Shown: piece after piece, positions 3,428 through 62,521 of the stretch | How the letters are laid out: each line of letters starts with the position of its first letter | How positions within the stretch are numbered: position 1 is the first letter of the stretch | Source: Chthoniobacterales bacterium | Lineage (GTDB): Bacteria; Verrucomicrobiota; Verrucomicrobiia; Chthoniobacterales; JACTMZ01 | Assembly (NCBI GenBank): GCA_018883245.1 | Contig: VEQL01000013.1 | Coordinates: 1-64,000 of the forward strand | Direction of reading: 5' to 3' | Length of the DNA stretch: 64,000 nucleotides | Notes under the pieces: model-generated | What the model saw: only the letters and a program-made list of their open reading frames with translations | Told to the model about the DNA's origin: nothing | Databases searched by the model: none | Position numbers and translations under genes: made by a program

Positions 3428-4575
3428 CCGCTCGCCCCGCGGATTGCGCAGGCCCCGGGGAAGAACTGCGACGCCGCATCAAAAGCAACGGTCCCGTCGG
3501 CTTCGACGAGTTCATGTCCGTTGCTCTCTATCACCCGGAAGGCGGCTATTACGCGTCCGGAACGTCGCGCACCGGGAAACACGGCGACTTTGTCACCAGC
3601 GTCAGCATCGGGCCGGTCTTCGGAAAACTTCTGGCCGCGCAGTTCTCGCGGATGTGGAAAGAGCTCGGCGAGCCCGGAGATTTCACGCTCGTCGAACAAG
3701 GCGCTAATGACGGGCAGCTTTTGGACGACATCCTGACGGCGATCGATCGCAACCACCCGGGATTCCGTCCGCACGCCATCATCGTCGAACCGCTCGCCAA
3801 CCGCCGCACGGCTCAAGAAACGTTGCTGCGGCGCTGGCAGGGGCGGACGCAATGGGTGGCGGACGAAAAAGATTTGCCGCGCTTCACCGGCGTGTTCTTC
3901 GCCAACGAATTGCTCGATGCCTTTCCGGTCAAACTTCTCGTCCGCACCGGCGGCAAATGGCTCGAGCGCCGCGTCGATTGCGACGCAGACCGGTTCGTCT
4001 TCCGCGAAACTCCTCTCGAGCATGCTGAAGCATTGGAGGCTGCGAAGAAAATGCCGGTCGATGGCGACAGCCGCTTTTGCACCGAATGGAGTCCTTCGCT
4101 CGCGCCCTGGCTCGAGACCGTCGCGGACAAATTGCAACGCGGATGGATTTTTCTCGTCGATTACGGGCATCCGCGCCGCGCCAGGTTTCATCCCGCGCGT
4201 GCGGAGGGAACGCTGGCCGCTTACCGCAAACAGCAGAGGGCGCCCGATCCCCTCGCCGCTCCGGGCCAACAGGATCTCACCGCGCACGTCGATTTCACGA
4301 CGGTCGCCGAGGAGGCGGAAAAATGCGGACTGCGCATCGCCGGATTCACCGACCAGCATCACGCCCTCGCCGCCTTGGCCGCGATCACATTTCCACCCAT
4401 GGCGTCGTCACCACTCGATGCCGCAGCGGCAAAGGAGATGCGCGCCCTGCGCCAGCTTCTTCACCCGGAAAGCATGGGCACGTCATTCAAATTTCTGGCG
4501 CTTTCCAAGGGAATCGACGCGCCGCTGCCGGCATTCCGCTTTGCCAGCGACGCCCACCGCGAGCTTTTCGCATGA
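3424..4575 (+). CDS. MidA/NDUFAF7-type SAM-dependent methyltransferase (DUF185)
   Basis: 383 residues, starting at a GTG that overlaps the previous stop (GTGA). Family features are clear: FDEFMSVALYHPEGGYY near the start, the GDFVTS segment, VEQGANDGQLL as the SAM-binding glycine motif (usually E-x-G-x-G-x-L), and FFANELLDAFPV after it. The mitochondrial homologue methylates an arginine of a complex I subunit; bacterial members are usually annotated only as class I SAM-dependent methyltransferases, so the target here is unknown. The next gene overlaps by 4 bases (ATGA). The assignment to family is firm, the substrate is not. Confidence 0.9.
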   Translation: MTARPADCAGPGEELRRRIKSNGPVGFDEFMSVALYHPEGGYYASGTSRTGKHGDFVTSVSIGPVFGKLLAAQFSRMWKELGEPGDFTLVEQGANDGQLLDDILTAIDRNHPGFRPHAIIVEPLANRRTAQETLLRRWQGRTQWVADEKDLPRFTGVFFANELLDAFPVKLLVRTGGKWLERRVDCDADRFVFRETPLEHAEALEAAKKMPVDGDSRFCTEWSPSLAPWLETVADKLQRGWIFLVDYGHPRRARFHPARAEGTLAAYRKQQRAPDPLAAPGQQDLTAHVDFTTVAEEAEKCGLRIAGFTDQHHALAALAAITFPPMASSPLDAAAAKEMRALRQLLHPESMGTSFKFLALSKGIDAPLPAFRFASDAHRELFA

Positions 4576-5312
4576 AACGTCCGACCGCAGAGCAACGCGA
4601 AGCGGCACGCCGCAGCCCCGGCGGACGCCGTCCCGTCATGCACCAGCGATGGGAAAATCTGCTTTTTCTTCATTGGACCGTTGATCGCGACGACATCCAG
4701 CGCACCCTTCCGCGCGGACTGCACGCCGACACTTTCGCCGGAACCGGTTGGATCGGTGTTGTGCCCTTCGCCATGCGCAACGTGCGTCCCGCCGGCTTGC
4801 CCGCTGCCGGATCGCTTTCGAATTTTCTCGAACTCAACGTCCGCACCTATGTCCATGACGACGATGGAGTCCCCGGCGTCTGGTTTTACTCCCTGGACTG
4901 CAATCAACCGCTTGCGGTGCTTGCCGCGCGCACGTTTTTCCGCCTGCCCTACGAGCATTCCACCATGCGCGCCGATTTCGGTCCGACGATCGATTACCAT
5001 TCGACCCGCCGAGGGACTTCGGCAGAAGCACATTACACGTGGCGCCCGCATGGCGAGACGCGATGCGCGACGGCCGGCAGCCTCGAATTTTTCCTGCTCG
5101 AGCGCTATCACCTCTATGCAACCCGGGGACCGCACCTTTGCCGCGGCACCGTCGCCCATGCGCCTTACGAATTCCGCGAGGCGAAGATCGACCGGTGTTC
5201 CGTGCTTCCCGCCGCGCTCGCCGGGTTCGATGCACTCGCACCGCAACCCCAGCACGCCTGCCACGCCGACGGCTTCGACGTCCGCATCTTCGCTCTTGAA
5301 CGACTGAAATGA
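4572..5312 (+). CDS. DUF2071 (YqjF-like) family protein
   Basis: 246 residues from an ATG overlapping the preceding stop by 4 bases. The pattern is that of DUF2071/YqjF: HQRWENLLFLHW near the start, a GTGWIGVVPFAMRNVRP strand, the LNVRTYV strand and the VWFYSLDCN segment, with a C-terminal SLEFFLLERYHLY region. The fold is an acetoacetate-decarboxylase-like barrel. No enzymatic role is established for YqjF proteins, and nothing here suggests one. An upstream in-frame extension to 4077 exists but lies inside the methyltransferase gene and is not used. It is third in the four-gene overlapping operon. Confidence 0.88.
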   Translation: MKRPTAEQREAARRSPGGRRPVMHQRWENLLFLHWTVDRDDIQRTLPRGLHADTFAGTGWIGVVPFAMRNVRPAGLPAAGSLSNFLELNVRTYVHDDDGVPGVWFYSLDCNQPLAVLAARTFFRLPYEHSTMRADFGPTIDYHSTRRGTSAEAHYTWRPHGETRCATAGSLEFFLLERYHLYATRGPHLCRGTVAHAPYEFREAKIDRCSVLPAALAGFDALAPQPQHACHADGFDVRIFALERLK

Positions 5313-6247
5313 AACTCCACGGCATCCACCACGTCACTGCCATCACCGCCCGCGCGAGGGAGAACCATCATTTTTACACGCAGGTCCTCGGCATGCGGTT
5401 GGTGAAAAAGACCGTCAACCAGGACGACGTCTCGGCCTACCATCTTTTCTATGCCGACGGCAACGGAACGCCGGGAAGCGATCTGACATTTTTCGATTGG
5501 CCCGCGGCGCCGGAACAGCGGGGCACGCCCGGCATCACGCGCACCGGATTGCGCATCGGCAACAATGCGTCCCTCGAATGGTGGCACGACCGGCTCCGTG
5601 CCCGCGACGTGCGGCATGAGGGCATCGCGGAGCGCGATGGGCGCGCCGTCCTCGACTTCGAGGATCCCGAAGGCCAGCGGCTCTGCTTCGTCGCGGATGA
5701 AGCGGATGGCAAAGCGCATCCGTGGACACGCAGCCCCGTGCCGCCGGAACACCAGATCCGCGGCCTTGGTCCTGTCACGCTCAGCGTCCCGAAACTCGAA
5801 CGCACCGACCGCGTATTCCGCGAATTGCTGAACATGCAACCGGTCCGCAGCTACGATCATGCCGGACGCGAGGCGCGCGTTTACCAAAGCGGTGATGCAA
5901 GCGGCCCCGCACAAGAGTTGCATGTCATGACGGAACCCGGCGCACCGTTCGCACGGCAAGGCGCGGGCGGGGTGCATCATCTGGCCCTGCGCACCACGTT
6001 GTCAGACTACGATGCTTGGGCCGCGCGTCTTTCCGACGCCGGCATTCCCCACAGCGGACCCGTCAACCGTTTCTGGTTCCGCAGCCTCTACTTTCGCGAG
6101 CCGAACGGCATCCTGATCGAGATCGCCACCGACGAACCCGGCTTCACCGCGGATGAACCTTCGGACCGGCTCGGCGAAGCCCTTTCGCTCCCGCCCTTCC
6201 TCGAGCCTCGCCGCGCCGAAATCGAAGCCGGGCTCAAACCGCTCTGA
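5309..6247 (+). CDS. VOC-family ring-cleaving dioxygenase (MhqO/MhqA-like)
   Basis: 312 residues, beginning MKLHGIHHVTAITARARENH, the hallmark start of glyoxalase-fold ring-cleaving dioxygenases of the MhqA/MhqO group. Two VOC modules are present, roughly residues 4-130 and 150-290. Metal ligands are expected at the HH of IHHVT (about 6-7), the HH of GGVHHLALR (about 226-227) and the Glu of GILIEIAT near 274. Relatives act on hydroquinone-type compounds or contribute to quinone and aldehyde resistance; the substrate here is unknown. It is the last gene of the operon starting at 2288, with a 4-base overlap to the gene before it. Confidence 0.9.
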   Translation: MKLHGIHHVTAITARARENHHFYTQVLGMRLVKKTVNQDDVSAYHLFYADGNGTPGSDLTFFDWPAAPEQRGTPGITRTGLRIGNNASLEWWHDRLRARDVRHEGIAERDGRAVLDFEDPEGQRLCFVADEADGKAHPWTRSPVPPEHQIRGLGPVTLSVPKLERTDRVFRELLNMQPVRSYDHAGREARVYQSGDASGPAQELHVMTEPGAPFARQGAGGVHHLALRTTLSDYDAWAARLSDAGIPHSGPVNRFWFRSLYFREPNGILIEIATDEPGFTADEPSDRLGEALSLPPFLEPRRAEIEAGLKPL

Positions 6248-6299
6248 CCGCGATTTTCCGCGTGTCGCAGCACGGCAGGACCGCTACATTCGGCCGCTC

Positions 6300-8105
6300 A
6301 TGTCGAAGGAAGCGCAACAACAGCGGATGGAAAAGGTCGTCAGCCTGTGCAAACGGCGCGGGTTCATTTTCCAGTCGTCAGAAATCTACGGCGGACTCAA
6401 CGGTTTTTGGGACTACGGCCCGATGGGAGCGGAACTCAAACGCAACCTGCGGGATTCATGGTGGCACACGATGACGCGCGACCGCGACGATGTCGTGGGC
6501 CTCGATGCGAGCATCATCATGCACCCGACGGTATGGACCGCCAGCGGGCATGTGGACACGTTCAGCGACCCGATGAGCACCTGCAAGCAATGCAAGAAGC
6601 TTGTCCGCGCCGACCAGTGGTGGGCGATGATGTCCGAGCAGAAGTGGACACAATCGATCGCGGAGCTTGTCGAACCGGGCACCAATCGCTTCCACCCCGC
6701 CGACCTCCTGAAGTGGGGCAAAGGCAAAGGCAAACAACTTGCGCCCAACCTCGCGCTTGTCCGCAATCCCGATGTCACGATTTCCTGGCTGGCGGAAGAA
6801 ACGGAGAAGGGCAAAGGGCCGGCTGATGCTGTCGAGCTTTACAAGTTTCTCGCCACCGAGCAAATGGCCGTCACCGGTTTGGTGACGCCGTGCCCGCATT
6901 GCGGCGGAGAACTCACCGCCCCGCGGCCGTTCAACCTCATGTTCCGCACGCATTGCGGACCGGTGGAGAGCGATGAGAACCTCGCCTACCTGCGCCCCGA
7001 GACGGCACAGGCCATTTTCGTGCAGTTCAAAAACGTCCTGGACTCCTCGCGCGTCAAAGTTCCTTTCGGCATCGCGCAAATCGGCAAAGCCTTCCGCAAC
7101 GAGATCACGCCTCGCAATTACACGTTCCGCTCCCGCGAGTTCGAGCAGATGGAGCTCGAATTTTTCATCCGGCCCGATGACGCCGTGCGACTCATCCACG
7201 GACACGTCGAGACTTGGCGCGAAGGCGCGGACCTCTCCGCCCCGCGCCCGAACTGGGGCTGGGACATGTGGCACCGTTACTGGGTGGACCAACGCACGAA
7301 ATATTACGACGCAATCGGCCTCGGCACGGACGTGCTCGACTACCACTGGCAAAAGCCGGAGGAACTCGCGCATTACGCCCGCGCCACGGTCGATATCCTT
7401 TTCAAATTTCCCTTCGGCACGGAGGAACTCGAAGGCATCGCCGCCCGCGGGGACTTCGACTTGGCGCAGCACCAGAAGTTCTCCGGCAAACCTCTGGAGG
7501 TATTCGACGAGGAACTCAAAGCTGCGTGCGACAAACTCTCCGACGCACAGAAAAAAGAATTCATCGACGAATTGTTCGAGAACCGCAAATGCGCGGACAC
7601 CACGCGCGAGGAAATCGCGACTTGCGCGGAAAGACTTTTCAAAGGCTTCTACCTGCCGCACGTCATCGAACCGTCGGCCGGACTCGACCGCATGGCCTTG
7701 GCCGTGCTGGCCGCCGCATTCGACGAGGAAACCGTCAGCGATGACAAAGGCAAAGCCGAGACCCGCACCGTGCTGCGCCTGCACCCCCGCGTTGCGCCGG
7801 TCAAATGCGCCATCTTCCCGCTGCTGAAAAACCGGCCTGAACTCGTCGCCAAAGCGCGCGAAATCGAAGCCTCGTTGCGTCGTCACATGAACGTCTTCTA
7901 CGACGAAGCGGGCGCCATCGGGCGCCGCTACCGCCGGCAGGACGAGATCGGAACGCCATTCTGCGTCACCGTGGATTTCGACACGATCGGGGAAAACGGG
8001 CCGGAGAAAGCCGGCACTGTCACCCTGCGACACCGGGACTCGATGCAGCAGGAGCGCATCCCGGTCACCGAACTGCGCGCACGGCTGGAAGCCGCGATTT
8101 TCTGA
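6300..8105 (+). CDS. glyS: Glycine--tRNA ligase, single-chain (alpha2, eukaryote/archaeal-like) type
   Basis: 601 residues from ATG 6300; an in-frame extension back to 6153 lies inside the upstream gene and is rejected. It charges tRNA-Gly with glycine. Class II features are visible: motif 1 region FWDYGPMGAELKRN, motif 2 RNEITPRNYTFRSREFEQMELEFF (split by the usual FRxE), and motif 3 PHVIEPSAGLDRMALAVL. Two CxxC pairs (CKQCKKL near 94 and CPHCGGEL near 198) suggest a zinc-binding insertion. The anticodon-binding domain fills the last 120 residues. This is the homodimeric type, not the alpha2beta2 GlyQ/GlyS pair. A 46-bp gap leads to phoU. Confidence 0.96.
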   Translation: MSKEAQQQRMEKVVSLCKRRGFIFQSSEIYGGLNGFWDYGPMGAELKRNLRDSWWHTMTRDRDDVVGLDASIIMHPTVWTASGHVDTFSDPMSTCKQCKKLVRADQWWAMMSEQKWTQSIAELVEPGTNRFHPADLLKWGKGKGKQLAPNLALVRNPDVTISWLAEETEKGKGPADAVELYKFLATEQMAVTGLVTPCPHCGGELTAPRPFNLMFRTHCGPVESDENLAYLRPETAQAIFVQFKNVLDSSRVKVPFGIAQIGKAFRNEITPRNYTFRSREFEQMELEFFIRPDDAVRLIHGHVETWREGADLSAPRPNWGWDMWHRYWVDQRTKYYDAIGLGTDVLDYHWQKPEELAHYARATVDILFKFPFGTEELEGIAARGDFDLAQHQKFSGKPLEVFDEELKAACDKLSDAQKKEFIDELFENRKCADTTREEIATCAERLFKGFYLPHVIEPSAGLDRMALAVLAAAFDEETVSDDKGKAETRTVLRLHPRVAPVKCAIFPLLKNRPELVAKAREIEASLRRHMNVFYDEAGAIGRRYRRQDEIGTPFCVTVDFDTIGENGPEKAGTVTLRHRDSMQQERIPVTELRARLEAAIF

Positions 8106-8151
8106 CCGTGGCGGCTTGCTCGCCGCACCGACCGGAGCCTAACTTACTTCC

Positions 8152-8847
8152 ATGCCGGACAACACTCCCCAACATATTTTGGCGAGGTTCGACGACGCGC
8201 TCAAAACACTGCGCGATCACGTCCTCATGATGGCCAGCCTCACGGACAAACTGCTTGTCCGCGCGGGTGAAGGCCTCTTCCAAAGGAATCTCGACGCCTG
8301 CAACGGCGTGATCGCGGACGACGCCGAGATCGACGTTCTGGAAAAGAATGTCGATGAGGACGGCATGGAGATCATGGTGCGGTTCCAGCCGATGGCCCGC
8401 GACTTGCGTGAGGTTGTGGCCGCGATGAAAGTCGGCACCGACCTCGAGCGCGTGGCCGACCAGGCGGTGAGCATCGCGCGCCGCGCACGCCGCCTCAACC
8501 AGTCCCCTTCGCTCCCCGAGACCGCCGCCTTGGAGGAAATGTTCCGCATGGCCCTGGAGCTTTTCCGCGCAAGTGTGCGCAGCTTCGCCGACCGCGACGA
8601 GACGCTGGCCCGCACCCTCAAGCCGCGCGACCGCGACCTGGACGGACTCCACCACAAAATGATCGGCGACCTCACCGCCCGGATGTCCTCGGATACGGCC
8701 CGCATTACGCAATACCTCGACCTTATCTTTGTTGCCCGCATCATCGAGCGCATCGGCGACCACGCGACCAACATCGCGGAGGACGCGGTTTTTGCGACCT
8801 CGGCTGTGGATATCCGCCACACCACCACGCCCCCGGCGGCGGGTTGA
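8152..8847 (+). CDS. phoU: PhoU-like phosphate signalling regulator
   Basis: 231 residues with two tandem PhoU three-helix bundles (about 10-110 and 120-215). The metal-cluster motifs are visible: DDAEIDVLEKNVDEDG in the first repeat, and matching E-x-x-x-D patterns such as ATNIAEDAVF at the end of the second. PhoU connects the Pst phosphate transporter to the PhoR/PhoB system and damps phosphate uptake. No pst genes lie nearby. It ends in an overlap with the following ABC ATPase reading frame, if that uses its TTG start. Confidence 0.93.
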   Translation: MPDNTPQHILARFDDALKTLRDHVLMMASLTDKLLVRAGEGLFQRNLDACNGVIADDAEIDVLEKNVDEDGMEIMVRFQPMARDLREVVAAMKVGTDLERVADQAVSIARRARRLNQSPSLPETAALEEMFRMALELFRASVRSFADRDETLARTLKPRDRDLDGLHHKMIGDLTARMSSDTARITQYLDLIFVARIIERIGDHATNIAEDAVFATSAVDIRHTTTPPAAG

Positions 8848-8858
8848 ACGCCGCCGCA

Positions 8859-9539
8859 ATGCCGGACGACATCCACCTGCACGCCCGCGGGCTCCACAAA
8901 GCCTTCCGGCTCGCATCTTCCGAACTCGAGATCCTGCGCGGTGTGGACCTCACCGTGAAGCGCGGCGAGACCGTCTTTCTCTGCGGTGCATCCGGCGCGG
9001 GCAAAAGCACCCTGCTTTACACGCTGGCCGGACTCGAACGCCCGACGTGCGGTGAGGTGAAATTCGAGGGCGAGGACCTTTACCGCGCATCCGCCTCGCG
9101 GCAAGCCGCACTCCGCAACACGCGCATGGGCTTCGTCTTTCAAAGCTACGCCCTGCTGCCCGAACTGACCGCGCTGGAAAACGTCGCACTGCCGGGCCTC
9201 ATCGGCGGCAAACCCGACCGTGATCGCGCCGCCGCATTGTTGCAGCAGGTCGGTCTCGGCGCGCGGGCGGGGCACCTTCCGTCCGAGTTGAGCGGCGGCG
9301 AGCAGCAGCGCGTGGCCATCGCCCGCGCGCTCGTCAACAAGCCCGGGATGCTTTTTGCCGACGAGCCCACCGGCAACCTCGACTCCCGCACGGGAGGCGA
9401 AGTCATCGACCTGCTGCTCGGGTTGGTCCGCGAACACGGCACCACGCTTTTGGCGGTCACCCACGACACCGGACTCGCCGCCCGCGGCGACCGCGTCCTG
9501 CACATACGCGACGGCAAACTGCTCGAGCAGGAGGATTGA
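8859..9539 (+). CDS. LolD/MacB-type ABC transporter ATP-binding protein
   Basis: 226 residues from ATG 8859; a TTG at 8844 overlapping the phoU stop would add five residues and could couple the two genes. Motifs are complete: Walker A GASGAGKST, Q-loop VFQSYALLPELTALENVALP, signature LSGGEQQR, Walker B MLFADEPTGNLDS, H-loop VTHD. The PTGNLD sequence and the short single domain are typical of the LolD/FtsE/MacB branch, which drives mechanotransmission (lipoprotein release, efflux) rather than import. No LolC/LolE-type permease partner is in the window, so the exact role is open. Confidence 0.9.
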   Translation: MPDDIHLHARGLHKAFRLASSELEILRGVDLTVKRGETVFLCGASGAGKSTLLYTLAGLERPTCGEVKFEGEDLYRASASRQAALRNTRMGFVFQSYALLPELTALENVALPGLIGGKPDRDRAAALLQQVGLGARAGHLPSELSGGEQQRVAIARALVNKPGMLFADEPTGNLDSRTGGEVIDLLLGLVREHGTTLLAVTHDTGLAARGDRVLHIRDGKLLEQED

Positions 9540-9622
9540 CGCCCCGACACCCCCGGCGCCTGCGCTTGCCCCCTGCATGAGGGCTGGCTAAAAGTCTCTC
9601 CCGAAAAACAACACGAAAACCT

Positions 9623-10249
9623 ATGGCCTACGAACTACCACCTCTCACCTACGCAAACAACGCACTCGAACCCCATATCGACGCGCGCACGATGGAGATC
9701 CACCACGACAAGCACCATCAGGCGTATATCACCAACGCGAACAACGCGCTGAAAGACCATCCGGCCCTCGCCGCCAAACCGGTCGATGAATTGATCGCCG
9801 ACCTTTCCGCCGTGCCGGAAGCCGTCCGCACCGCCGTGCGCAACAACGCCGGTGGCCATGCCAACCACACGTTCTTCTGGACCATCATGGGTCCGAATGC
9901 CGGCGGCGAACCCAAAGGCAAGCTGGCCGAAGCGATCAAAGCGAAGTTCGGCAGCTACGACGCTTTCAAAGAGGCTTTTGAAAAAGCCGGCGCCACACGC
10001 TTCGGCAGCGGCTGGGCCTGGCTCGTCGTCAACAAGGGCGAACTTGAAGTGGTCTCGACCGCGAACCAGGACAGCCCGCTCATGGGCAAAGCCGTCGCCG
10101 GGGTGGAAGGGAAACCCGTCATCGGCTGCGACGTCTGGGAGCACGCCTACTACCTCAACTACCAAAACCGACGCCCCGATTACCTCAAAGCCTGGTGGAG
10201 CACGGTCAACTGGGACCAAGCCGAGAAAAACTACCTCGCCGCGCTGTAA
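9623..10249 (+). CDS. Superoxide dismutase, Fe/Mn family
   Basis: 208 residues starting [20 protein letters not shown]. It converts superoxide to hydrogen peroxide and oxygen. Metal ligands follow the family pattern: His in EPHID, His in [10 protein letters not shown], and the Asp and His of [19 protein letters not shown]. The GGHANH and GPNAGGEP segments are closer to the Mn-type sequence set, but metal choice cannot be settled by eye. There is no export signal, so it is cytoplasmic. A strong intrinsic terminator follows 25 bases after the stop. Confidence 0.95.
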
Positions 10250-10274
10250 TCCGCGCCCGATCAACTCACCGCAA

Positions 10275-10310
10275 AAAAAGCCCGTGGCCTACCGCCCCGG
10301 GCTTTTTCTT
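10275..10310 (+). terminator. Intrinsic terminator after superoxide dismutase
   Basis: A perfect 10-bp stem, AAAAAGCCCG (10275-10284) with CGGGCTTTTT (10298-10307), and a 13-base loop. The T run at 10303-10307 makes it a good rho-independent terminator on the plus strand. It separates sod from aroE. Confidence 0.85.
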
Positions 10311-10343
10311 TGGTCGCAGCCACGCCGCCTATAGAGTGACCCG

Positions 10344-11192
10344 ATGATTCCTCCGCAAAAGCAAATGACAGGCATGCTCGGTCATCCGGTGGCCGAGAAC
10401 CCGATCGACCGCATGTTCGACGCCGTTTACGCGCACTACGGGTTGCCCTGGCAATTCTGGAAAAGCAACATCGCCTCGGAGTCCGCTCTCGCCTTGGCCG
10501 TCCCCGCTTTGGCGCCTCTCGGCTACCGCGGTTTTACCATCACCGTTCCCTACAAAGTCGCGGTGATGCCGATGCTTGATGAAATCGACGACGATGTGAA
10601 AGCGATCGGCGCGGCCAATTACGTGACCATCGAGAAAGGGCGTTTGGTCGGTCACAACAACGACGGCAAGGGCGTGGTCAAAGCCATCGAAAAAGTGGTG
10701 CCCCTGCGCGGCCAGCACGTGGTCATGCTCGGCGCGGGCGGCGCCGGGCGCGCCATGGCCGTGGAGATCGCCTGGGCCGGCGCCGCAAAGATGACGCTGG
10801 TGACGCGCCGCGAAGAGCAGGGACGCGAGGTCGCCGGACTGGTGCAACGCGCCAGCGGCATCCCCTGCGATTGGCAACCCTGGCAAAAGGAAGTCGAATT
10901 GCCGGCAGGAACCACCCTGCTGATGAACGCGACCCATCTGGGCTGCGCGCCCGAACTGGAGCCCGTGCCGGTGCGTTGGGATACGGTGCCCAACGACTGC
11001 ACGGCCGTCGATGTCATCACCAACCCGAGACTCACTCCTTTCCTGCTCACGGCACGCGAGCACGGTTGCCGCATCGTGGACGGCGTGGAAATGCTCGTGC
11101 AGTTGGCCATGCAGATCTTCGAACGTTGGACGGGCATCGCTCCGGACGAGAAAGTTTTCCAACGCGCCGTGGCCGAGGCCCTCGGCGAATAA
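10344..11192 (+). CDS. aroE: Shikimate dehydrogenase family protein (AroE-like, divergent substrate site)
   Basis: 282 residues. AroE reduces 3-dehydroshikimate to shikimate with NADPH. The catalytic Lys is in TVPYK (K71), the partner Asp in NNDGKG (D107), and the dinucleotide loop is GAGGAG at 130-135 followed by an Arg-containing VTRREEQGR NADP-type segment. The N-terminal shikimate-binding Ser-x-Ser (usually HSxSP) is missing; the protein has GHPVAENPID at about 13-22. The protein may therefore use another hydroxycyclohexane or a small acid. The family is clear but the substrate should be treated as uncertain. Confidence 0.85.
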   Translation: MIPPQKQMTGMLGHPVAENPIDRMFDAVYAHYGLPWQFWKSNIASESALALAVPALAPLGYRGFTITVPYKVAVMPMLDEIDDDVKAIGAANYVTIEKGRLVGHNNDGKGVVKAIEKVVPLRGQHVVMLGAGGAGRAMAVEIAWAGAAKMTLVTRREEQGREVAGLVQRASGIPCDWQPWQKEVELPAGTTLLMNATHLGCAPELEPVPVRWDTVPNDCTAVDVITNPRLTPFLLTAREHGCRIVDGVEMLVQLAMQIFERWTGIAPDEKVFQRAVAEALGE

Positions 11193-11313
11193 ATGCGTAA
11201 GCGACCGGCACTGTCCTGGACGACAAAGCCCGCGGTCTCCGCTCCGGCAATCGATGGCAGCTTCTGGGGCGCCATTGTGACATCAGATCTTTTTTGATTT
11301 TGCACCAGCCATC

Positions 11314-11511
11314 ATGCAAACCACCCTCGACCTGGCCGACGCCCTCACCGCGGGCAATCTCGTTCCTGACGCCCACGTCGCGACAATTCTCCGCAAGCAC
11401 GGCGTGCGCCGCCTCTGCACCACGGCTACCGATTTCCGGAAGTTTGACTTCTTCGAGGTTATCCATCCGCTGCGCACTGTAGCGGCAAGTTTGGTGCGCT
11501 CATCGCGATGA
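11314..11511 (+). pseudogene. C-terminal remnant of a VapC-type PIN-domain toxin
   Basis: 65 codons whose middle part (GNLVPDAHVATILRKHGV, then TATDFRKFDFFEVIHPL) is the C-terminal signature of VapC PIN ribonucleases. The first two thirds of a PIN domain, with the first catalytic acids, are absent; the frame is closed upstream by a TGA at 11278. The tail after HPL is not family-like and runs into the next gene with a 4-base overlap. No VapB antitoxin is visible in the 121 bases before it. Best read as a decayed toxin-antitoxin locus between aroE and the polyketide cassette. Confidence 0.65.
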
Positions 11512-12200
11512 CCCCGGGAATTCCCCCACGCAAATCGGCGCGCAGGGTCGAGCCTGAGATTCTCGACAACCTTCCGCCCGACGCCGAGGGCGTTCGCGAG
11601 GCGAGGCGGGACTTGCGCCGGATCAATGCGATCATGGGAAACCACCGATGGATCCGGAGCGCACTGCAGCGATTGGTGCAACCGGATGACCGTGTGGTTG
11701 AATTGGGCGCCGGCGACGGATCGCTCGCCTTGCGCGCAAGGGACGTTATCAGAAACGCATCCGGCAGCCGGTATTCGGCGTTGGATCTTGCACCGCCGCC
11801 GCACGACTGGCCGGGCGGGCTGGAGTTTGAATGGATCCAAGGCGACTGGCGCGAATCCTGTGCGCGCCACGCGCCTGACGTGGTTGTCGCCAACTTGTTT
11901 TTCCACCACTTCGACGATGCCGAGTTGCGCGCCGGGGCGGCAGCATTCCTCGCGTCAGCCCGTGTCATCATCTGCCGCGAACCGGCCCGGCACCGGGCGT
12001 GGATGCGACACTTGCTTCTTCCGCTCGGGCTGCACCCGATCACCCGTCATGACATGGCCGTGAGCATCCGCGCCGGTTTTCTGCACAGCGAACTTCCGCA
12101 GGCACTCGGATTGGATAAAAATTGGCGCGTCCGTGTGCGCCACACGCTTTTCGGGGCGTATGAAATGACCGCTCTACGTGCGACGGGCGGCACGAGATGA
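11508..12200 (+). CDS. Class I SAM-dependent methyltransferase of a type III PKS cassette
   Basis: 230 residues. The SAM-binding glycine motif is VVELGAGDGSLAL near 64-76, followed by the acidic strand end YSALDLAPPP and the motif-4 strand DVVVANLFFHHFDD. The last segment has no metal-binding features, so an ordinary class I O- or C-methyltransferase is likely. It is the first of three genes joined by overlap (ATGA with the oxidoreductase), which points to methylation of the polyketide product or of an intermediate. This role is inferred from context only. Confidence 0.82.
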   Translation: MTPGIPPRKSARRVEPEILDNLPPDAEGVREARRDLRRINAIMGNHRWIRSALQRLVQPDDRVVELGAGDGSLALRARDVIRNASGSRYSALDLAPPPHDWPGGLEFEWIQGDWRESCARHAPDVVVANLFFHHFDDAELRAGAAAFLASARVIICREPARHRAWMRHLLLPLGLHPITRHDMAVSIRAGFLHSELPQALGLDKNWRVRVRHTLFGAYEMTALRATGGTR

Positions 12201-51221: not shown

Positions 51222-52036
51222 CTACTCCGGAAGCATCGGCGTGAAATTTATGCGCAGCCCCCACTGCTGACCGGGCACGGGCGACTGGGCGTAGTATTGC
51301 AGGGCCAACCCGATCTGCACCGGGATTTTGCCGATCTTGATCACCTGGGAATACGTGTTGTTGAACGAGATGGTCCACTGCTCATCGAGCCAGTCGTAGG
51401 TTGATTCGCTGTCGATGCTGATGCTCGTCGCCGTCTTGAAGGTGTGCGTCACGAAGGGTTGGAAATAGCTCGCGTTGTAATCGCCGGGGCCGGCGACGCG
51501 CCAGTTTTGGGTGACGAGCGATCCGATCGTCCATCCGTTCTTCTGCACCAAGGCAACCGCGGACGGACCGAGCGTCATGACATCGCCGCCGAGTTTCTTT
51601 TGTGTGGCCGTGGGCAGGATGGACGTGGGCCCGAGGCCCCAGATAATTCCGAAAGGCCCTGGCTTCACCGGCGAAAGAAACGTCTCGAGCTCGAGATCCC
51701 CCAGTCCGCTGACATAGCCCGGACCGAACACATTGCTCGTAGAGATGAACGGCAGGACCGGCCGCACGATGTAGTTCCATTCGGGCGTGATGTGAAGAGG
51801 GATGACCGGCTGGATATTGAGTAAGTAAGCGTTCCCTGGTGCTCCCCAACGCCGAAATTGAAGTTATTCTGAAACTGCATGCTGATCAGGTCCGCAACCG
51901 GGTTCTGCAATTTCTGGGCCAACTCGGCGGTGTTGGCCTCAGGCGCCGGTGCCGTGGTCACCTCGACCGGAGCGGCAGCGATGGCCCCGCCGGCAAACAG
52001 GGCGAGAAACATGGAAGTGAGGGGGAGCGATTTCAT
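51222..52036 (-). pseudogene. Outer-membrane 'neuromedin U-like' protein gene with frameshift
   Basis: Two frames together encode one protein. From ATG 52036 the first frame reads a signal peptide (MKSLPLTSMFLALFAGGAIAAA) and AQKLQNPVADLISMQFQNNFNFGVG; after about 51845 the family continues in another frame as YLLNIQPVIPLHITPEWNYIVRPVLPF to a natural stop at 51222. The conserved order matches a widespread Gram-negative outer-membrane beta-barrel family often labelled neuromedin U or transporter. One lost base (or two gained) near GGGGAGCACC explains the shift. Either a true pseudogene or a sequencing error. A LytTR-like site lies upstream at 52093-52123. Confidence 0.8.
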
Positions 52037-52092: not shown

Positions 52093-52123
52093 CGACGAAA
52101 CGGCAATTTTTTCGACGAAAAAG
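52093..52123 (-). promoter_or_regulatory. Paired 11-bp direct repeat (LytTR-type site) upstream of the outer-membrane gene
   Basis: On the minus strand the distal half is CTTTTTCGTCG (52123-52113) and the proximal half CCGTTTCGTCG (52103-52093), period 20. The proximal half ends 56 bases before the start at 52036. The same pair occurs at 58069-58099 and 61186-61216. CCGTTTCGTCG is close to the AlgR target CCGTTCGTC. Confidence 0.6.
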
Positions 52124-55335: not shown

Positions 55336-57312
55336 ATGAGCAAGCCCGTCGCCATTTTTACATTGATGACGGCCCTTGCCTTGTCGGCGGAGGCGTCGGT
55401 GCCGGCTTTGGTCATCGGGGAGCAACCAACTCCGGTCTTGGATGTCACGCCGCACGCGGAATTTCTCGTCGATCCCACGGCGGAACTTGATGTCGCGCAG
55501 GTCGCGTCGGCGCCATGGAGCGGCGAATTTAAACCCTCCGCGGAGCATCCGCCATCCTTCGGCTTCACCCGGGGCGCTGTCTGGATGCGTTGCGAGATCC
55601 GATCGCAAAGTCCGCGCGACGAGAGCCTCGTCTTCGAGTTGCGCTTCCCCCTCATCTCCCATGTGACGTGGTATGTCGTAGCGAACGGACGGGTGGAAAA
55701 GTCCCTCCCCGGCGGCGGCGCCGAAAAAGTGCGCCTCACGCGCAACCCGGCGATCGAGGTGCACATCCCCGCCGGGCAAACGCGCACCGTCTTCGCGCGA
55801 GTGACCTCGAATACCGCGCTGCAGATGCCGTTCATGGTTGGATCCCCTTCGGCCGTGCAACAGCTCGCGTCGAAGGACTCGTTCTTGGACGTCTTGCTCA
55901 TCGGGTTTTGCGCGGCGGCGGCCGCGTTCATCGCCATGATCGGTTTCAGTCAGGGGCAACGCCTGTTTTTCTACCTCGCGGCTTTCTCCGCACTCTACGC
56001 GTGCTACTACGCGATTTTCCACGGCTACGTGGGGGAGCTATGGCCCGGGCGGCCCTTTTGGATCGAACGCACGGGCTTCGGAATGAGCGCCGCCCTCGCG
56101 GTATGGACCTTTGTCCGATTCAACGGATCGTATCTCGACACGCGCACCATGGCCCGCCACGAACGATTCCTCCAACGTGCGGCGGAGGTGCTGCTGCTGC
56201 TCGGCGCGGCCCTGTTGCTTGTCGTCGATTACGGCCGGGCGATACCGGCGCTCAACGGGCTGATAGCCCTGAGCCTTCTGCTCGCCACGCTGGTTGTCAT
56301 CCTGCGGTTCCGCCATCACCGCAAGCGCGAGGAAATAGGATTTTTCCTCACATGGCTCGCCTTCGCCATTTGCTCCACCCTGATCACGCTGAAGATCACC
56401 AAAGTCCTCCCGGTGTCCGTCCCCTTCCAAGTCCTCCAGCAGTTCACGATTCCGGCGGTCATCGCCGCCTTTTTTCTCGTGGCCATGGCCCGCCAACGCA
56501 GTCTGCAGCGTATGGAAGTCCAACTCGCCGAAACCGAGGCCCTGCGTTCGCGGGCCGAAGAGGAACGCGATGCCAAGAACCTCTTTCTCGCCAACGTGAG
56601 CCACGAAATCCGCACGCCTCTCAGCGCGCTGGTCAGCCTCTCGCAAGCCATGTGGCTGCGCTGCGAAGCGAAGGATCTCGATGTCGAGTTCTCCAGTTTC
56701 CTCAACCGCGTGCGCTCCGGCGGCCAATACTTGAGCCTGCTCTTGCGCAATGTTCTCAACGTTTCCGCCGCCGAGTCGGGGCGCGTCCCCGTGCGTGTCA
56801 CCGATTTTTACCTCGCCGACTGGGCCGGCGAGATCCGCAACATCCTCGAACCCATCGCCGATTACCACCGCGGTCGCATCGAATGGAACATCTCGGCCGA
56901 CGACGAGACCCGCCTGCGCACCGACGAAATGCGCCTCACCCAAATCGCTCTTAACCTCGCCGAAAACGCCCTCAAGTTCGGGTCCGGAACCGGGGCGCCC
57001 GTCTCGATCACCTTGGAGAAAACCGCCCGCGGCCTCCGCATGATCGTCGAGGATCGCGGGCCGGGCATCGCCGCGGACCGCTTCGACTCGGTGTTTGCGG
57101 AGTTCGAGCAGGCCGGTGGCGGCCACGCGCGCCCGATGGCCACCGGCGTTGGACTCGGGCTGGCCGTGGTCAAACTCAACACCAGCCTCCTCGGCGGCAC
57201 GCTCAGCGCGGAAAAGAACTCCTCCGGCGGAATGCGCTTCGTCGTTGAAATCCCGGACAGCGCGGAAGAAATTTCCGCCGACGCGCACCGGACTGCGCCT
57301 CCGGCCTTGTGA
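55336..57312 (+). CDS. 7TMR-DISM type membrane histidine kinase
   Basis: 658 residues from ATG 55336 (MSKPVAIFTLMTALALSAEA); a start at 55288 would add 16 residues. Signal-like N-terminus, then an extracellular 7TMR-DISMED2 beta domain at about 50-185 (RGAVWMRCEIRSQSP... is its core). Seven hydrophobic helices run from about 190 to 400. A short coiled-coil (LQRMEVQLAETEALRSRAEEERDAKN) leads to HisKA with His423 (NVSHEIRTPLSAL), and HATPase_c with N- and G-boxes (NLAENALKFGSG, EDRGPGIA, TGVGLGLAVV). Followed after 16 bases by a LytTR response regulator, its likely partner. Confidence 0.93.
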   Translation: MSKPVAIFTLMTALALSAEASVPALVIGEQPTPVLDVTPHAEFLVDPTAELDVAQVASAPWSGEFKPSAEHPPSFGFTRGAVWMRCEIRSQSPRDESLVFELRFPLISHVTWYVVANGRVEKSLPGGGAEKVRLTRNPAIEVHIPAGQTRTVFARVTSNTALQMPFMVGSPSAVQQLASKDSFLDVLLIGFCAAAAAFIAMIGFSQGQRLFFYLAAFSALYACYYAIFHGYVGELWPGRPFWIERTGFGMSAALAVWTFVRFNGSYLDTRTMARHERFLQRAAEVLLLLGAALLLVVDYGRAIPALNGLIALSLLLATLVVILRFRHHRKREEIGFFLTWLAFAICSTLITLKITKVLPVSVPFQVLQQFTIPAVIAAFFLVAMARQRSLQRMEVQLAETEALRSRAEEERDAKNLFLANVSHEIRTPLSALVSLSQAMWLRCEAKDLDVEFSSFLNRVRSGGQYLSLLLRNVLNVSAAESGRVPVRVTDFYLADWAGEIRNILEPIADYHRGRIEWNISADDETRLRTDEMRLTQIALNLAENALKFGSGTGAPVSITLEKTARGLRMIVEDRGPGIAADRFDSVFAEFEQAGGGHARPMATGVGLGLAVVKLNTSLLGGTLSAEKNSSGGMRFVVEIPDSAEEISADAHRTAPPAL

Positions 57313-57328
57313 TTATCTTCCCCATCCC

Positions 57329-58012
57329 ATGCGAGCCTTCATCATCGACGACAGCCCCGAGGACGCGCTCAACCTTCGCGAGTTGCTCGTGCGCATGCCC
57401 GGATGGGATTCCGTCGCCCAAGCCCATTCCATCGCCGCCGCGCGAACCGTATTGGAGGAAGGCCCGCCCGATGTCGTCTTCCTCGACATCGAACTCGGAC
57501 GCCACAGCGGCTTCGACCTGCTGCCGTGCCTGCCCGCCGACACGCGTGTTATACTCACCACTGTTCACACCGCTTATGGTCCGCAGGCCTTCGACGCGAA
57601 CGCTGTGGACTACATCGTGAAACCCGTCACTGAGGAGCGTTTGCTGCGCGCGCTGGCCAAGCTCGGCCCCTTGTATCAACAGACCTCGACCGGCGTGCAA
57701 GTTTATCGCGGCGGGGGTGAACGCATCCAAATCGCCCTCGAGTCCGTCGCGGCCGTGGTGGCCGACCGCGACCACACCATCGTCTACTGCGGCAGCCGCC
57801 GCTATCCCGACCATCGCCGTTTCAGCGAGTGGATGAAACTCACCGAAGGGCATCCCTTCACGCAACTCGACCGCTCCACGCTCGTGCGCCGCGATCTTGT
57901 CCATTCGTGGACGCCCTACGGATCAGGCCTCACACTCAAGTTCCGCAACTCGCCGCAGGAACTCGCACTCGGCCGCGCCGCCGCGAAACGTTTTCTCGGC
58001 TCGGAAGATTGA
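57329..58012 (+). CDS. LytTR-family response regulator
   Basis: 227 residues from ATG 57329; an upstream frame to 57095 is inside the kinase gene. Receiver: acidic pair in FIIDDSPED, phosphoacceptor Asp53 (VVFLDIELG), Thr78 (ILTTVHTAY), Lys98 (YIVKPV). Residues 125-227 are a LytTR DNA-binding domain (IQIALESVAAVVADRDHTIVY, FTQLDRSTLVRRDLVHSWTPYG). Such regulators bind pairs of short direct repeats, and these occur 57 bases downstream (58069-58099), before the PEP-CTERM gene. The kinase gene precedes it directly. Confidence 0.93.
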   Translation: MRAFIIDDSPEDALNLRELLVRMPGWDSVAQAHSIAAARTVLEEGPPDVVFLDIELGRHSGFDLLPCLPADTRVILTTVHTAYGPQAFDANAVDYIVKPVTEERLLRALAKLGPLYQQTSTGVQVYRGGGERIQIALESVAAVVADRDHTIVYCGSRRYPDHRRFSEWMKLTEGHPFTQLDRSTLVRRDLVHSWTPYGSGLTLKFRNSPQELALGRAAAKRFLGSED

Positions 58013-58068: not shown

Positions 58069-58099
58069 CTGTTTCGACGTAAAGATCGCCGTTTCGACG
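58069..58099 (+). promoter_or_regulatory. Paired 11-bp direct repeat (LytTR-type site) upstream of the PEP-CTERM gene
   Basis: CTGTTTCGACG (58069-58079) and CCGTTTCGACG (58089-58099), separated by nine bases, period 20. It ends 82 bases before the PEP-CTERM start at 58182 and begins 56 bases after the response-regulator gene. GCGGCCGA lies nine bases upstream. The same pair recurs at 61186-61216 and 52093-52123. Confidence 0.65.
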
Positions 58100-58181
58100 A
58101 GGTAAACTGCAAAACGCCGGATTTCGATTTGCGGTTGTGCAGTCACGCACGCACCTTCCGCCCACTTCATCGAATATCGTT

Positions 58182-61121
58182 ATGACAAAATACGTCATCC
58201 TCTTCGCCGCCGCGCTCTGCTTCGCCTCCGGCATCACGGCCCAAGCACAAACCTCCGTCACCCTCGACGGCGCTTCCGGCAGCCAGGTCTACAATGCGTC
58301 ACGCTCCACCGACGGTGGTCTCACCATCGGACTCGGCTTCGGGGTGGATTACCTCGTCATCGGCGGAGGAGGTGCCGGAGCATATGCCACTCCTGCTGCC
58401 GACGGATACGAAGGCACGGGAGGCGGTGGTGCAGGCGGTTTCGTTGATGGCTCCACCTTCCTTTCCTCGCAATCCTATGGAGTGTCTGTCGGTGCGGGCG
58501 GTGCCGGGACGGGCAGCGGTGTCACCCGGGGCGGAAACGGCGGAAACTCGACCTTCGACATCTACACGGCACTCGGCGGCGGTGGCGGGGGTGGCTATGG
58601 TCTGACTGGCAACTCCGGAGGATCCGGCGGCGGTGGCGGGGGCCGCAATGGCACTCTCGGCGGCGCAGGCACTGCAGGCCAGGGATTCTCCGGAGGGAAC
58701 GCGCAACCCGGAACTACTCTCCAACAGGAGGCAGGCGGCGGCGGGGGCGGCGCGGGTGGTGCCGGCACTGCGGGTGACACTCTGGAGAACGGGGGCAACG
58801 GAGGAATTGGCAAGGTCTCAACCATCACGGGTGCAAGCGTCTATTACGCTGGTGGCGGCGGTGGCGGGGCATTCGCGGACAACGGGGACACCCAGGGAAC
58901 GGGTGGCTTGGGTGGCGGTGGAAACGCTTCCCGCACAGGCACCGGAGGAGCCGGGACCAACGGCCTCGGCGGTGGCGGAGGCGGGGTTGGCGACGATGGC
59001 AATGGCGGAGCAGGCGGCTCCGGAGTTGTCATAGTCCGCTACAAGGGATCGGCGGCAGGGACCGGTGGGTCCATTAGCTCTGGCACCGGCACTGCAGCAG
59101 GCTACACCCTTCACACCTTCACCAGCACCGGTTCCAGTTCGCTGAATCTCTCGGGACTCGACCTGAACGCGCGTCTCGGTGCGGTGGAGAACGGCGTTAT
59201 CTCAGGCAGTGGTGGCCTTACTTTTTCAGGTCCCGGCGCGCTAACGCTTGCGGCGAACAACTCCTACTCCGGCACGACAACGATTACATCGGGCACGCTC
59301 CGCATCGGCAATGGAGGATCCACCGGATCACTCGGTGCAGGTGCGGTCACGAATAATGCAGCGCTGGCAATCAACCGCTCGAACAGCATCACCGTGAGCA
59401 ATGCAATTTCCGGCACCGGATCTCTTGCCCAAGGCGGGAGCGGCACGACAGTGCTCACTGGCAACAACACCTACAGCGGTGCCACGACGATTTCGGCCGG
59501 CACGCTCCAAGTCGGTGCAGGAGGAACGCAAGGCACCCTTGGCGGCGCTGGAAGCATCAGCAACGCCGGAACGCTCGACTTCTCCCGCAGCGACGATGTC
59601 GCGCTCTCCCGCGCGGTCACAGGAACGGGCGCGCTCGTGCAGTCGGGTTCCGGCACACTCACGCTTTCCGGCGCCAACACCTACTCGGGTGGCACATTGG
59701 TCTCTGCCGGTCGCATCGTCGGCACGACCGCGAGCCTGCAGGGCGGGATAACCAACAATGCAAGTGTCGCCTTCGATCAAGCAACGAACGGCAATTATGC
59801 CGGCAACATGAGCGGCACGGGCTTGATGGTGAAGACGGGTGCGGGCACGGCGACGCTCTCGGGAGCGAACACGCATTCAGGTGGCACGCTGGTTTCGGCC
59901 GGTTCGCTCGTCGGCACGACAACGAGCTTGCAGGGCGGGATAACGAACGACGCAATCGTCGCCTTCGATCAAGCAACGAACGGCAATTATGCCGGCAATA
60001 TGAGCGGCACGGGTTTGATGGTGAAGACGGGCGCAGGCACGGTGACGCTTTCGGGAGCGAACACGCATTCAGGCGGCACGCTGGTTTCGGCCGGGCGCAT
60101 CGTCGGCACGACAGCGAGTCTGCAAGGCGCGATCACCAACAACTCGTCGGTCGAGTTTGCGCAGACGAATGGCGGAACCTACGCGGGTGCAATGAGCGGA
60201 AACGGTTCGCTCGTTAAGACCGCAGCGGGCACGCTCACACTCGCGGGTAACAACACGTATTCCGGCGGCACGACTGTAGCGGCCGGACGTCTCGTCGGAA
60301 CCACGGCCAGCCTCCAAGGAGCGATCGCCAACGAGGGGCAAGTCGAATTCAACCAAAGCGCCAACGGCACCTACAGCAATGCGATCAGCGGCAGCGGCTC
60401 GATGATCAAGTCGGGTGCGGGAACCGTCACGCTCACGGCGAGCAACACTTACACCGGAACAACCACGGTGACTGGCGGATTGATCGTCAACGGCTCGATC
60501 TCCGGCAGCGCCACGACGGTGCAAAGCGGAGGTTTCCTTGGAGGCTCGGGCACGGTGGGAAGCCTCACGATTGAAAGCGGCGGCACGCTCGCACCGGGCA
60601 ATTCTCCCGGAACGCTCAACATCAACGGCAATCTCCTCTGGACTGCAAACGGCAATTACGACTGGCAAATTTTCAACGCCTCAGGAACCGCGGGGAACAC
60701 CAACGGTTGGGATTTGCTCAACATCTCGGGCGCTCTCGATCTGACAGCACTCTCCGCGGGCGAAAAATTCAACATCAACATGTGGTCGCTGGCATCGCTC
60801 TACCCCGACGTCAACGGCAATGCGACGGGCTTCAACAACACGCAGAACTACCGCTGGACCATCGCGACCGCCGCTGGCGGCATCACCAACTTCAGCACGA
60901 ATTATTTCAATCTCTTTGTCTCGGCCAACAACAACGCTACCGGATTCAAAAACAATACCGACGGCGGTCTATTCGCGCTCGAGACGCAAGGCAACAATCT
61001 CGATATCGTCTTCACTGCAAAAACTGGACCATCACCCGTCCCCGAACCCGGCACATGGGCCGCTGCGGCGCTGCTCCTCGGTGGCGCGGCGTTCGCACGC
61101 TGGCGTAAGCGGCGCAAGTAA
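58182..61121 (+). CDS. Giant secreted beta-strand-repeat protein with PEP-CTERM anchor
   Basis: 979 residues from ATG 58182; the frame back to 58137 is leader. Signal peptide ends ITAQAQ. Residues 50-300 are extremely Gly-rich (GGGGGG and GAGG runs). Residues about 330-850 carry autotransporter-associated beta-strand repeats (NTYSGGTLVSAG..., GTGxLxKxGxGTLTLSGANT). Near 855 GTLAPGNSPGTLNINGNLLW marks a passenger end. The C-terminus is SPVPEPGTWAAAALLLGGAAFARWRKRRK, the PEP-CTERM motif, hydrophobic helix and Arg/Lys tail that target exosortase-dependent surface sorting. No exosortase is in the window. Several repeat units are nearly identical. Confidence 0.93.
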   Translation: MTKYVILFAAALCFASGITAQAQTSVTLDGASGSQVYNASRSTDGGLTIGLGFGVDYLVIGGGGAGAYATPAADGYEGTGGGGAGGFVDGSTFLSSQSYGVSVGAGGAGTGSGVTRGGNGGNSTFDIYTALGGGGGGGYGLTGNSGGSGGGGGGRNGTLGGAGTAGQGFSGGNAQPGTTLQQEAGGGGGGAGGAGTAGDTLENGGNGGIGKVSTITGASVYYAGGGGGGAFADNGDTQGTGGLGGGGNASRTGTGGAGTNGLGGGGGGVGDDGNGGAGGSGVVIVRYKGSAAGTGGSISSGTGTAAGYTLHTFTSTGSSSLNLSGLDLNARLGAVENGVISGSGGLTFSGPGALTLAANNSYSGTTTITSGTLRIGNGGSTGSLGAGAVTNNAALAINRSNSITVSNAISGTGSLAQGGSGTTVLTGNNTYSGATTISAGTLQVGAGGTQGTLGGAGSISNAGTLDFSRSDDVALSRAVTGTGALVQSGSGTLTLSGANTYSGGTLVSAGRIVGTTASLQGGITNNASVAFDQATNGNYAGNMSGTGLMVKTGAGTATLSGANTHSGGTLVSAGSLVGTTTSLQGGITNDAIVAFDQATNGNYAGNMSGTGLMVKTGAGTVTLSGANTHSGGTLVSAGRIVGTTASLQGAITNNSSVEFAQTNGGTYAGAMSGNGSLVKTAAGTLTLAGNNTYSGGTTVAAGRLVGTTASLQGAIANEGQVEFNQSANGTYSNAISGSGSMIKSGAGTVTLTASNTYTGTTTVTGGLIVNGSISGSATTVQSGGFLGGSGTVGSLTIESGGTLAPGNSPGTLNINGNLLWTANGNYDWQIFNASGTAGNTNGWDLLNISGALDLTALSAGEKFNINMWSLASLYPDVNGNATGFNNTQNYRWTIATAAGGITNFSTNYFNLFVSANNNATGFKNNTDGGLFALETQGNNLDIVFTAKTGPSPVPEPGTWAAAALLLGGAAFARWRKRRK
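59691..60458 (+). repeat. Four 192-bp (64-codon) tandem units inside the PEP-CTERM gene
   Basis: Units start near 59693, 59885, 60077 and 60269, exactly 192 bases apart. Units 1 and 2 share long identical stretches, for example around AGCGGCACGGGCTTGATGGT. Each codes one beta-strand repeat block of 64 residues. Recent expansion or gene conversion is likely. Confidence 0.75.
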
Positions 61122-61165
61122 TCGGGACTGCATTTCGCGGTGCGCCGTGCGGCCGAGATACATCT

Positions 61166-61216
61166 GCGTCTCGACGCGAAGAACGCTGTTTCGTCGGAAA
61201 AACCGCCGTTTCAACG
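61166..61216 (+). promoter_or_regulatory. Paired (possibly triple) 11-bp direct repeat upstream of the lipase
   Basis: CTGTTTCGTCG (61186-61196) and CCGTTTCAACG (61206-61216), period 20, and a weaker half site GCGTCTCGACG at 61166-61176, also 20 bases away. The proximal half ends 84 bases before the lipase start. GCGGCCGA (61149-61156) lies nine bases before the weak half, as before site 58069. The following 60 bases resemble those at 58100-58160. Confidence 0.65.
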
Positions 61217-61300: not shown

Positions 61301-62521
61301 ATGACCCAGAACCGCACATTCCTCACCATCGCCTGCACCCTCGCCACGATCGCGTTCGCGCAGGCGGAACCAGCCATCGACTACAATCAACCGCCCACTC
61401 CGTCCTCGACGAAAGCGCGTCTCGCACCGCCGGTCACCGGCAAAAAACCGGGCGACCTGCTTTCGCACGAGGAAATCGGCACGGACATCAAGGGCGCACG
61501 CGCATGGAAAGTCCGCTACGTCTCGAAGGATGTGAATGACGTCCTGCACGAAGTCACCGGTTTGGTCATCGCCCCGGAAGAAAAAGGCAAGGATCGCAAA
61601 GTGCTCACTTGGTGCCACGGCACCACCGGCATCGGCGATGCCGCCTGCCCATCGGCCCAACCCAACCCGGCACGCAACCTTATCGCTTATTATGACGCGC
61701 CGTCCACGCAGCAGATCGACTACGGCGTGCCCGGACTGCAGGGCTTCATCGATGACGGCTATGTCGTCTGCGCCACGGATTACCAAGGCCAAGGCTCCCC
61801 GGGGCAGCATCAATACGAAGTCAACCGCACCCAGGCGCGTGATGCCGTCAACCTCATTCATGCCGCGCGCGCACTCGATCTCGGCATGGGAAACAAATTC
61901 GGCTGCGCCGGATGGTCGCAGGGCGGCGGGGCGGCCGCCGCGGTCGCCGAGCTGGAGGCGGCGGACTACGGCGACTTGAAATTGGTCGGCACCGTGCCGA
62001 TGTCGCCGGTCACCACCGCGATCATCTTCGGTTTCCCCTCGGGTCCCACCGCCTTGAGCCTCGATCCGTCGAAGGCGCCGGAAGTGCACGTCGCCATGAT
62101 GCTCGCCGGTCTCCAGAGCGCCAACCCGGACACCTTGAAGCTCTCCGATTTCTTCACTCCATTGGGCGTCGAGATCATCGAAACATCATGGAACATCCAA
62201 CCGGTGCACCACCTCGGCGACACCATTGACCGCCTCCACCTGCTCAAAGGCGCGGTGACGCAGGCCAAACCGGCCAATCTCGACGCATGGAAAAAAGCTG
62301 TCGCCGCCGCTTCCGGGGGCACGCGCAAACCCTGCGCACCGATGCTGCTCTGCGTGGATAACGGAACCTTGAACCCGCTGCCTTGGCAACAGGCCTTGGC
62401 CACCGAAGTCACCAAACTCGGTGGAAACGTCGAAACCAAGTCATACCCGAAAGACGATCACTTCTCCCTGCCGAACAGCTGCGCCCCGGACGCCCACAAT
62501 TGGTTGAACGGGTTGTTCTAG
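61301..62521 (+). CDS. Secreted lipase-family alpha/beta hydrolase
   Basis: 406 residues. Signal peptide MTQNRTFLTIACTLATIAFAQA, so exported. The nucleophile elbow GWSQGGGAAAA has Ser206; the oxyanion region is TWCHGTTGIGDAACPS. The acid and His are expected late in the chain: the Asp of LCVDNGTLNP and the His of KDDHFSLPNSC. The overall pattern is that of the fungal-type secretory lipase family (PF03583), sparsely found in bacteria. It likely degrades lipids or esters outside the cell. Its promoter carries a LytTR-type pair (61186-61216). Confidence 0.88.
   Translation: MTQNRTFLTIACTLATIAFAQAEPAIDYNQPPTPSSTKARLAPPVTGKKPGDLLSHEEIGTDIKGARAWKVRYVSKDVNDVLHEVTGLVIAPEEKGKDRKVLTWCHGTTGIGDAACPSAQPNPARNLIAYYDAPSTQQIDYGVPGLQGFIDDGYVVCATDYQGQGSPGQHQYEVNRTQARDAVNLIHAARALDLGMGNKFGCAGWSQGGGAAAAVAELEAADYGDLKLVGTVPMSPVTTAIIFGFPSGPTALSLDPSKAPEVHVAMMLAGLQSANPDTLKLSDFFTPLGVEIIETSWNIQPVHHLGDTIDRLHLLKGAVTQAKPANLDAWKKAVAAASGGTRKPCAPMLLCVDNGTLNPLPWQQALATEVTKLGGNVETKSYPKDDHFSLPNSCAPDAHNWLNGLF

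Follow-up and report, generated by a model that had tools for sequence, protein, structure and literature searches.

We examined three paired 11-bp direct repeats in a 64,000-nucleotide stretch of DNA from a Chthoniobacterales bacterium (here called the window) and conclude with good confidence that they are operators for the LytTR response regulator encoded beside them. This regulator would be phosphorylated by the neighboring sensor kinase and would most likely activate a small regulon for exported products. The positions of these features, together with a second LytTR system found in the same genome, are listed in Table 1.

TABLE 1 Features of the predicted LytTR regulon in the window and the second LytTR locus of the same genome
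Feature	Position	Strand	Description and evidence
Exported outer-membrane protein gene	51222..52036	-	Signal peptide MKSLPLTSMFLALFAGGAIAAA; frameshift in the N-terminal third in this assembly
Operator 3 (predicted)	52093..52123	-	CTTTTTCGTCG (52123-52113)-AAAAAATTG-CCGTTTCGTCG (52103-52093); 56 bp 5′ of the outer-membrane gene start
Sensor kinase	55336..57312	+	Pfam: 7TMR-DISM extracellular and 7TM domains, HisKA (PF00512), HATPase_c
LytTR response regulator	57329..58012	+	227 aa, REC + LytTR; Pfam PF00072 and PF04397, AlphaFold, Foldseek
Operator 1 (predicted)	58069..58099	+	CTGTTTCGACG (58069-58079)-TAAAGATCG-CCGTTTCGACG (58089-58099); 82 bp 5′ of the PEP-CTERM gene start
Exported PEP-CTERM protein	58182..61121	+	Pfam PF12951, PF21722, PF07589; signal peptide; seven PATR repeats, Gly-rich domain
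Operator 2 (predicted)	61166..61216	+	Three halves in 20-bp steps: GCGTCTCGACG (61166-61176, weak third), CTGTTTCGTCG (61186-61196), CCGTTTCAACG (61206-61216); 84 bp 5′ of the lipase start
Exported secretory lipase-like alpha/beta hydrolase	61301..62521	+	Pfam PF03583; signal peptide MTQNRTFLTIACTLATIAFAQA
Second LytTR system	G000:C3:100000-119000 (L052), 3745-11819		7TMR/LytS-type kinase, LytTR regulator, three PEP-CTERM genes, two operators of 21-bp period (predicted)

The repeats have the layout of LytTR operators and precede genes for exported proteins

Known LytTR sites consist of 9- to 11-nt repeats with 11- to 13-bp spacers (PMC4847170), and a 20-bp period (9 + 11) has been described among them (PMC6193735). 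When an operator was defined as two direct repeats of 9 to 11 nt with an 11- to 13-bp spacer and a period of about 20 to 22, all three sites qualified, the period between the paired 11-bp halves being exactly 20 in each. The half-site in this system reads CCG, then T or A, then TTCGTC. A first-pass annotation of the window had reported the three pairs, the additional third half, and the exact 20-bp period, and the coordinates and the period all proved correct on recheck.

The same annotation had described all three target genes as encoding exported or outer-membrane proteins. A signal peptide does open each of the three, but in this assembly the reading frame of the outer-membrane gene is broken by a frameshift near 51.8 kb. 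Its orthologues in two genomes of the same genus (G003 and G006) are intact (296 to 308 aa), and the frameshift may be either a true mutation or an assembly error. The gene is 87 to 88% identical in these two genomes, where it has no such operator, the homology ending near the gene start; both also lack an orthologue of the regulator (best hits, about 33%).

The adjacent genes encode a LytTR regulator and a HisKA kinase

The regulator scored 60.8 bits against PF00072 (cut-off, 30.2) and 29.6 bits against PF04397, the LytTR domain (cut-off, 22.6), the latter score being modest though above the cut-off. Its AlphaFold model had a pLDDT of 90, and the best Foldseek hits were full-length ComE (4cbv; E value of 3e-11, overall TM of 0.4 to 0.5) and a LytTR domain (3d6w; TMt of 0.71). 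The low overall TM to ComE is probably due to a different domain placement. The phospho-acceptor Asp (D53) and the receiver Lys (K98) were invariant in a 39-member alignment. The start at 57329 was used in the Pfam scan, the structure model, and the search of the named genome collection, while the initial searches with the regulator took 57389 as the start, 20 codons too late. No close homologue above about 33% full-length identity was found in the named genome collection.

The kinase does not belong to the LytS class (PF06580) and carries a HisKA domain instead. A LytS-type partner is usual for LytTR regulators but is not required for membership of the family. The catalytic part of the kinase was 45 to 51% identical to the kinases encoded beside orthologous regulators, whereas its sensor part shared about 30% identity with the kinase of the second LytTR locus of the genome. 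Since the two parts resemble different kinases, domain shuffling is suggested as the origin of this protein. The first-pass annotation had placed a LytTR response regulator with a 7TM kinase directly before the first site, as Pfam now confirms, and the LytTR assignment is supported by the PF04397 score, the fold match to ComE and the LytTR domain, and a repeat spacing that tracks the regulator clade (see below).

The window motif is confined to the neighborhood of its regulator

Genome-wide tests were pattern searches of the 2.9-Mb genome with TTTCGWCG-N12-TTTCGWCG. With at most one mismatch, matches were found solely at the three window sites (two perfect, one of them operator 3, and two overlapping ones with one mismatch), all less than 9 kb from one of the two LytTR genes of the genome. 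Allowing two mismatches added nine further matches, which were scattered as background. No copy of the motif was found at further PEP-CTERM genes in the genome-wide search, and no comparable repeat pair was present 5′ of the kinase gene, which would have pointed to autoregulation, 5′ of the OprB porin gene, or in the other intergenic regions tested. Because the near-perfect matches are restricted to the 9-kb neighborhood of the regulator, the motif marks a local regulon, and the earlier expectation of an enrichment among the promoters of exported-protein genes across the genome was wrong. Separately, a weaker 20-bp-period repeat (GAAGTTTCG...GAAGTTTCG) was seen near PEP-CTERM genes at about position 4860 of another contig (G000:C62).

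As the motif was derived from the very sites that it describes, these might be chance repeats picked up by a reader scanning for patterns. However, only about 0.003 perfect and 0.15 to 0.5 one-mismatch sites are expected by chance in a genome of this size, and the period peak tested in other genomes refutes such an origin, the probability of which we regard as negligible. The repeats thus do not occur at the random rate that the first-pass annotation had named as evidence against its proposal.

Two of the three promoters are related by duplication

The PEP-CTERM and lipase promoters aligned across about 150 bp, also outside the repeats, with a score about 13 s.d. above shuffles; the part downstream of the operator alone scored 10 s.d. 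above shuffles. They look like one duplicated promoter, the promoter with operator 2 being a likely paralogue of that with operator 1. The window therefore holds two independent occurrences of the operator, not three, and independent support must come from elsewhere. This alignment would also fit a similarity due to descent only, in which a promoter was copied as the genes for the PEP-CTERM protein and the lipase were duplicated, and the repeats have no regulator-specific role. Against this, the outer-membrane promoter on the opposite strand is separate from the duplication and yet has a perfect site, and orthologous and paralogous loci keep the spacing with repeats of different sequence. Descent without function is thus highly improbable.

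Repeat spacing follows the regulator clade in related genomes

The comparison covered three families of the order with 83 LytTR loci in all, in which we counted exact 9-bp direct repeats outside gene interiors. The repeats peaked at a period of 21 bp, with 26 cases against about 3 per other period, some of the 26 coming from near-identical loci and not being independent. Loci of GerE-type regulators showed no peak, with two repeats at 21 bp and none at 20, compared with 12 and 3, respectively, in 29 same-size LytTR loci. The half-site consensus across loci was CCG(A/T)TTCGTC(G/A), in which the TTC core is partly imposed by its use in orientation and scoring, the repeats themselves having been found without it.

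A period of 20 was present only in the five regulators of the window clade (that of the window and the closest ones, from G065, G080, G016, and G084), and 19 others had a period of 21. When 82 regulators were placed on a tree, those with a period of 20 formed one group (SH-aLRT, 98) and the period label changed once. All five members of this group have a HisKA kinase beside the regulator as judged by motif, which Pfam confirmed for the window and three others. The orthologues in G065 and G016 are followed directly on their 3′ side by GCGGATTCGCAC-type pairs, and looser 20-bp pairs are found in G080 and G084.

In G065 and G016, the operator precedes a small protein of 75 to 76 aa with a weak match to DUF6364; this conserved protein (MPRIADPNRKLRGKLNLTIHPEIRDFAEQL...; L046, 9883-10113, and L048, 8893-9120) lies immediately behind a period-20 operator that is perfect or nearly so. 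At the G080 locus (L047, G080:C11, around 8574), the operator on the 3′ side of the orthologous regulator leads into a stretch resembling a promoter, and within about 130 bp comes a strong hairpin that, with its T run, looks like a terminator; no clear gene is present there, and the element is possibly a small RNA. The orthologous regulator of G084 is split over two reading frames (L049, 9480-10050; G084:C2) and is probably broken or misassembled. Among five other families of the order (f4, f5, f6, f9, and f10), clear operators were found in only 2 of 40 LytTR loci (G057:C41 and G138:C61), and the remaining 21-bp matches there were set aside as mostly tandem 7-mers or coding-like repeats.

Signal-peptide genes, when called strictly, followed 16 of the 25 operators, whereas among the background genes 67 of 361 passed (Fisher P = 2e-6); a lenient rule had been dropped in favor of the strict one, given its background of 41%. 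Pfam assigned PEP-CTERM domains to 8 of 22 operator targets, and others included GH18 with LPMO, multicopper oxidase, and lipase. In G006, an exported LPMO_10-CBM-GH18 fusion lies behind a LytTR-type operator of period 21 (L071, 7290-10145; G006:C10), and this chitin-degradation gene is apparently under the same kind of control.

A second LytTR system of the genome has its own motif

The only other LytTR gene of the genome lies on contig C3, where PEP-CTERM genes flank the locus on both sides. Its motif, GATTCGTC-N13-GATTCGTC, has a period of 21 and differs from that of the window. With at most one mismatch, it had three matches genome-wide, two at the C3 locus and one remote (G000:C1:10074-10102), each just 5′ of a PEP-CTERM gene. 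The genome contains 38 PEP-CTERM matches, so this three-of-three placement is not expected by chance.

These two systems bear on whether the sites might be bound by some other regulator, or might be a promoter element of an alternative sigma factor, for which there is room in that sites and regulator are linked solely by sequence evidence. The spacing, however, follows the LytTR clade on the tree, the loci of GerE response regulators lack the period peak, and the matches to each motif cluster around the LytTR gene to which it belongs, a single remote site of the second motif excepted. We therefore consider a different binding factor very unlikely.

Proposed mechanism

In the regulon that we favor, the 7TM-sensor HisKA kinase would respond to a signal and phosphorylate the neighboring LytTR regulator, two molecules of which would occupy the two half-sites in tandem, 20 bp or nearly two helical turns apart. 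Placed upstream of each promoter, the regulator would most likely activate three genes, whose products are a PEP-CTERM surface protein sorted by exosortase, a secreted lipase, and an outer-membrane protein. No shared -10 element was found at a fixed distance from the operators, and activation is therefore inferred by analogy. The lack of a canonical promoter element at a constant distance would also fit a regulator that binds the repeats but is a repressor of the three genes, or has both effects, as would the repression of rhlI by AlgR, whose half-site is similar and which is likewise a LytTR regulator (PMC4064291). On the other hand, the half-sites lie 56 to 84 bp ahead of the start codons, and the LytTR direct repeats studied so far are located just 5′ of the -35 element and are activating (PMC6193735), making repression or dual action unlikely.

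As to its origin, the LytTR clade may have exchanged the usual LytS-type partner for a HisKA kinase, with a change in operator spacing from 21 to 20 bp. In this genome it would have become a dedicated local control unit for exported proteins, the exosortase-sorted ones among them, after a joint acquisition of regulator and operators. We offer this history tentatively, as a possibility somewhat short of even.

Comparison with known systems

The E. coli LytTR regulator YpdB binds in tandem to a direct repeat of period 21 (GGCATTTCAT) at yhjX (PMC4847170), which resembles the 21-bp sites in the relatives of the window bacterium. It differs from the window system in its target, yhjX, its LytS-type kinase, and its period of 21 rather than 20. 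The response regulator AlgR of Pseudomonas aeruginosa, also of the LytTR family, recognizes the core CCGTTCGTC, which is near CCG(T/A)TTCGTC (PMC4064291); the likeness to the AlgR target had been pointed out in the first-pass annotation and is borne out by the literature. The LytTR Regulatory Systems HdrRM and BrsRM resemble the window in having locus-linked, regulator-adjacent 9-bp direct repeats with 11- to 13-bp spacers (PMC6193735). However, they have a membrane inhibitor and carry the repeats before their own operon, whereas the window has a histidine kinase and no repeat before the kinase-regulator operon, and it was accordingly not classed as a LytTR Regulatory System.

Little is known of how PEP-CTERM surface proteins are regulated. 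The one dedicated case that we found in the literature, that of the RpoN-dependent PEP-CTERM genes, shares this theme but uses sigma-54 control (PMC9850573), unlike the LytTR operator predicted here. A search of the open-licence literature turned up no paper in which LytTR appears together with PEP-CTERM, with names in Opitut-, or with Verrucomicrobia and direct repeats. From this analysis, operators can be predicted exactly for both LytTR systems of the genome as well as for many relatives, and each predicted system ties a sensor kinase to exported products, namely, PEP-CTERM proteins, chitinase-LPMO fusions, multicopper oxidases, and lipase. The split between 20 and 21 bp, following the regulator phylogeny, is a natural setting in which to test how the spacing of an operator is read by LytTR dimers. 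The system is well supported and of a known overall kind; its points of interest are its dedication to exported and PEP-CTERM proteins and its clade-specific 20-bp spacing with a HisKA partner.
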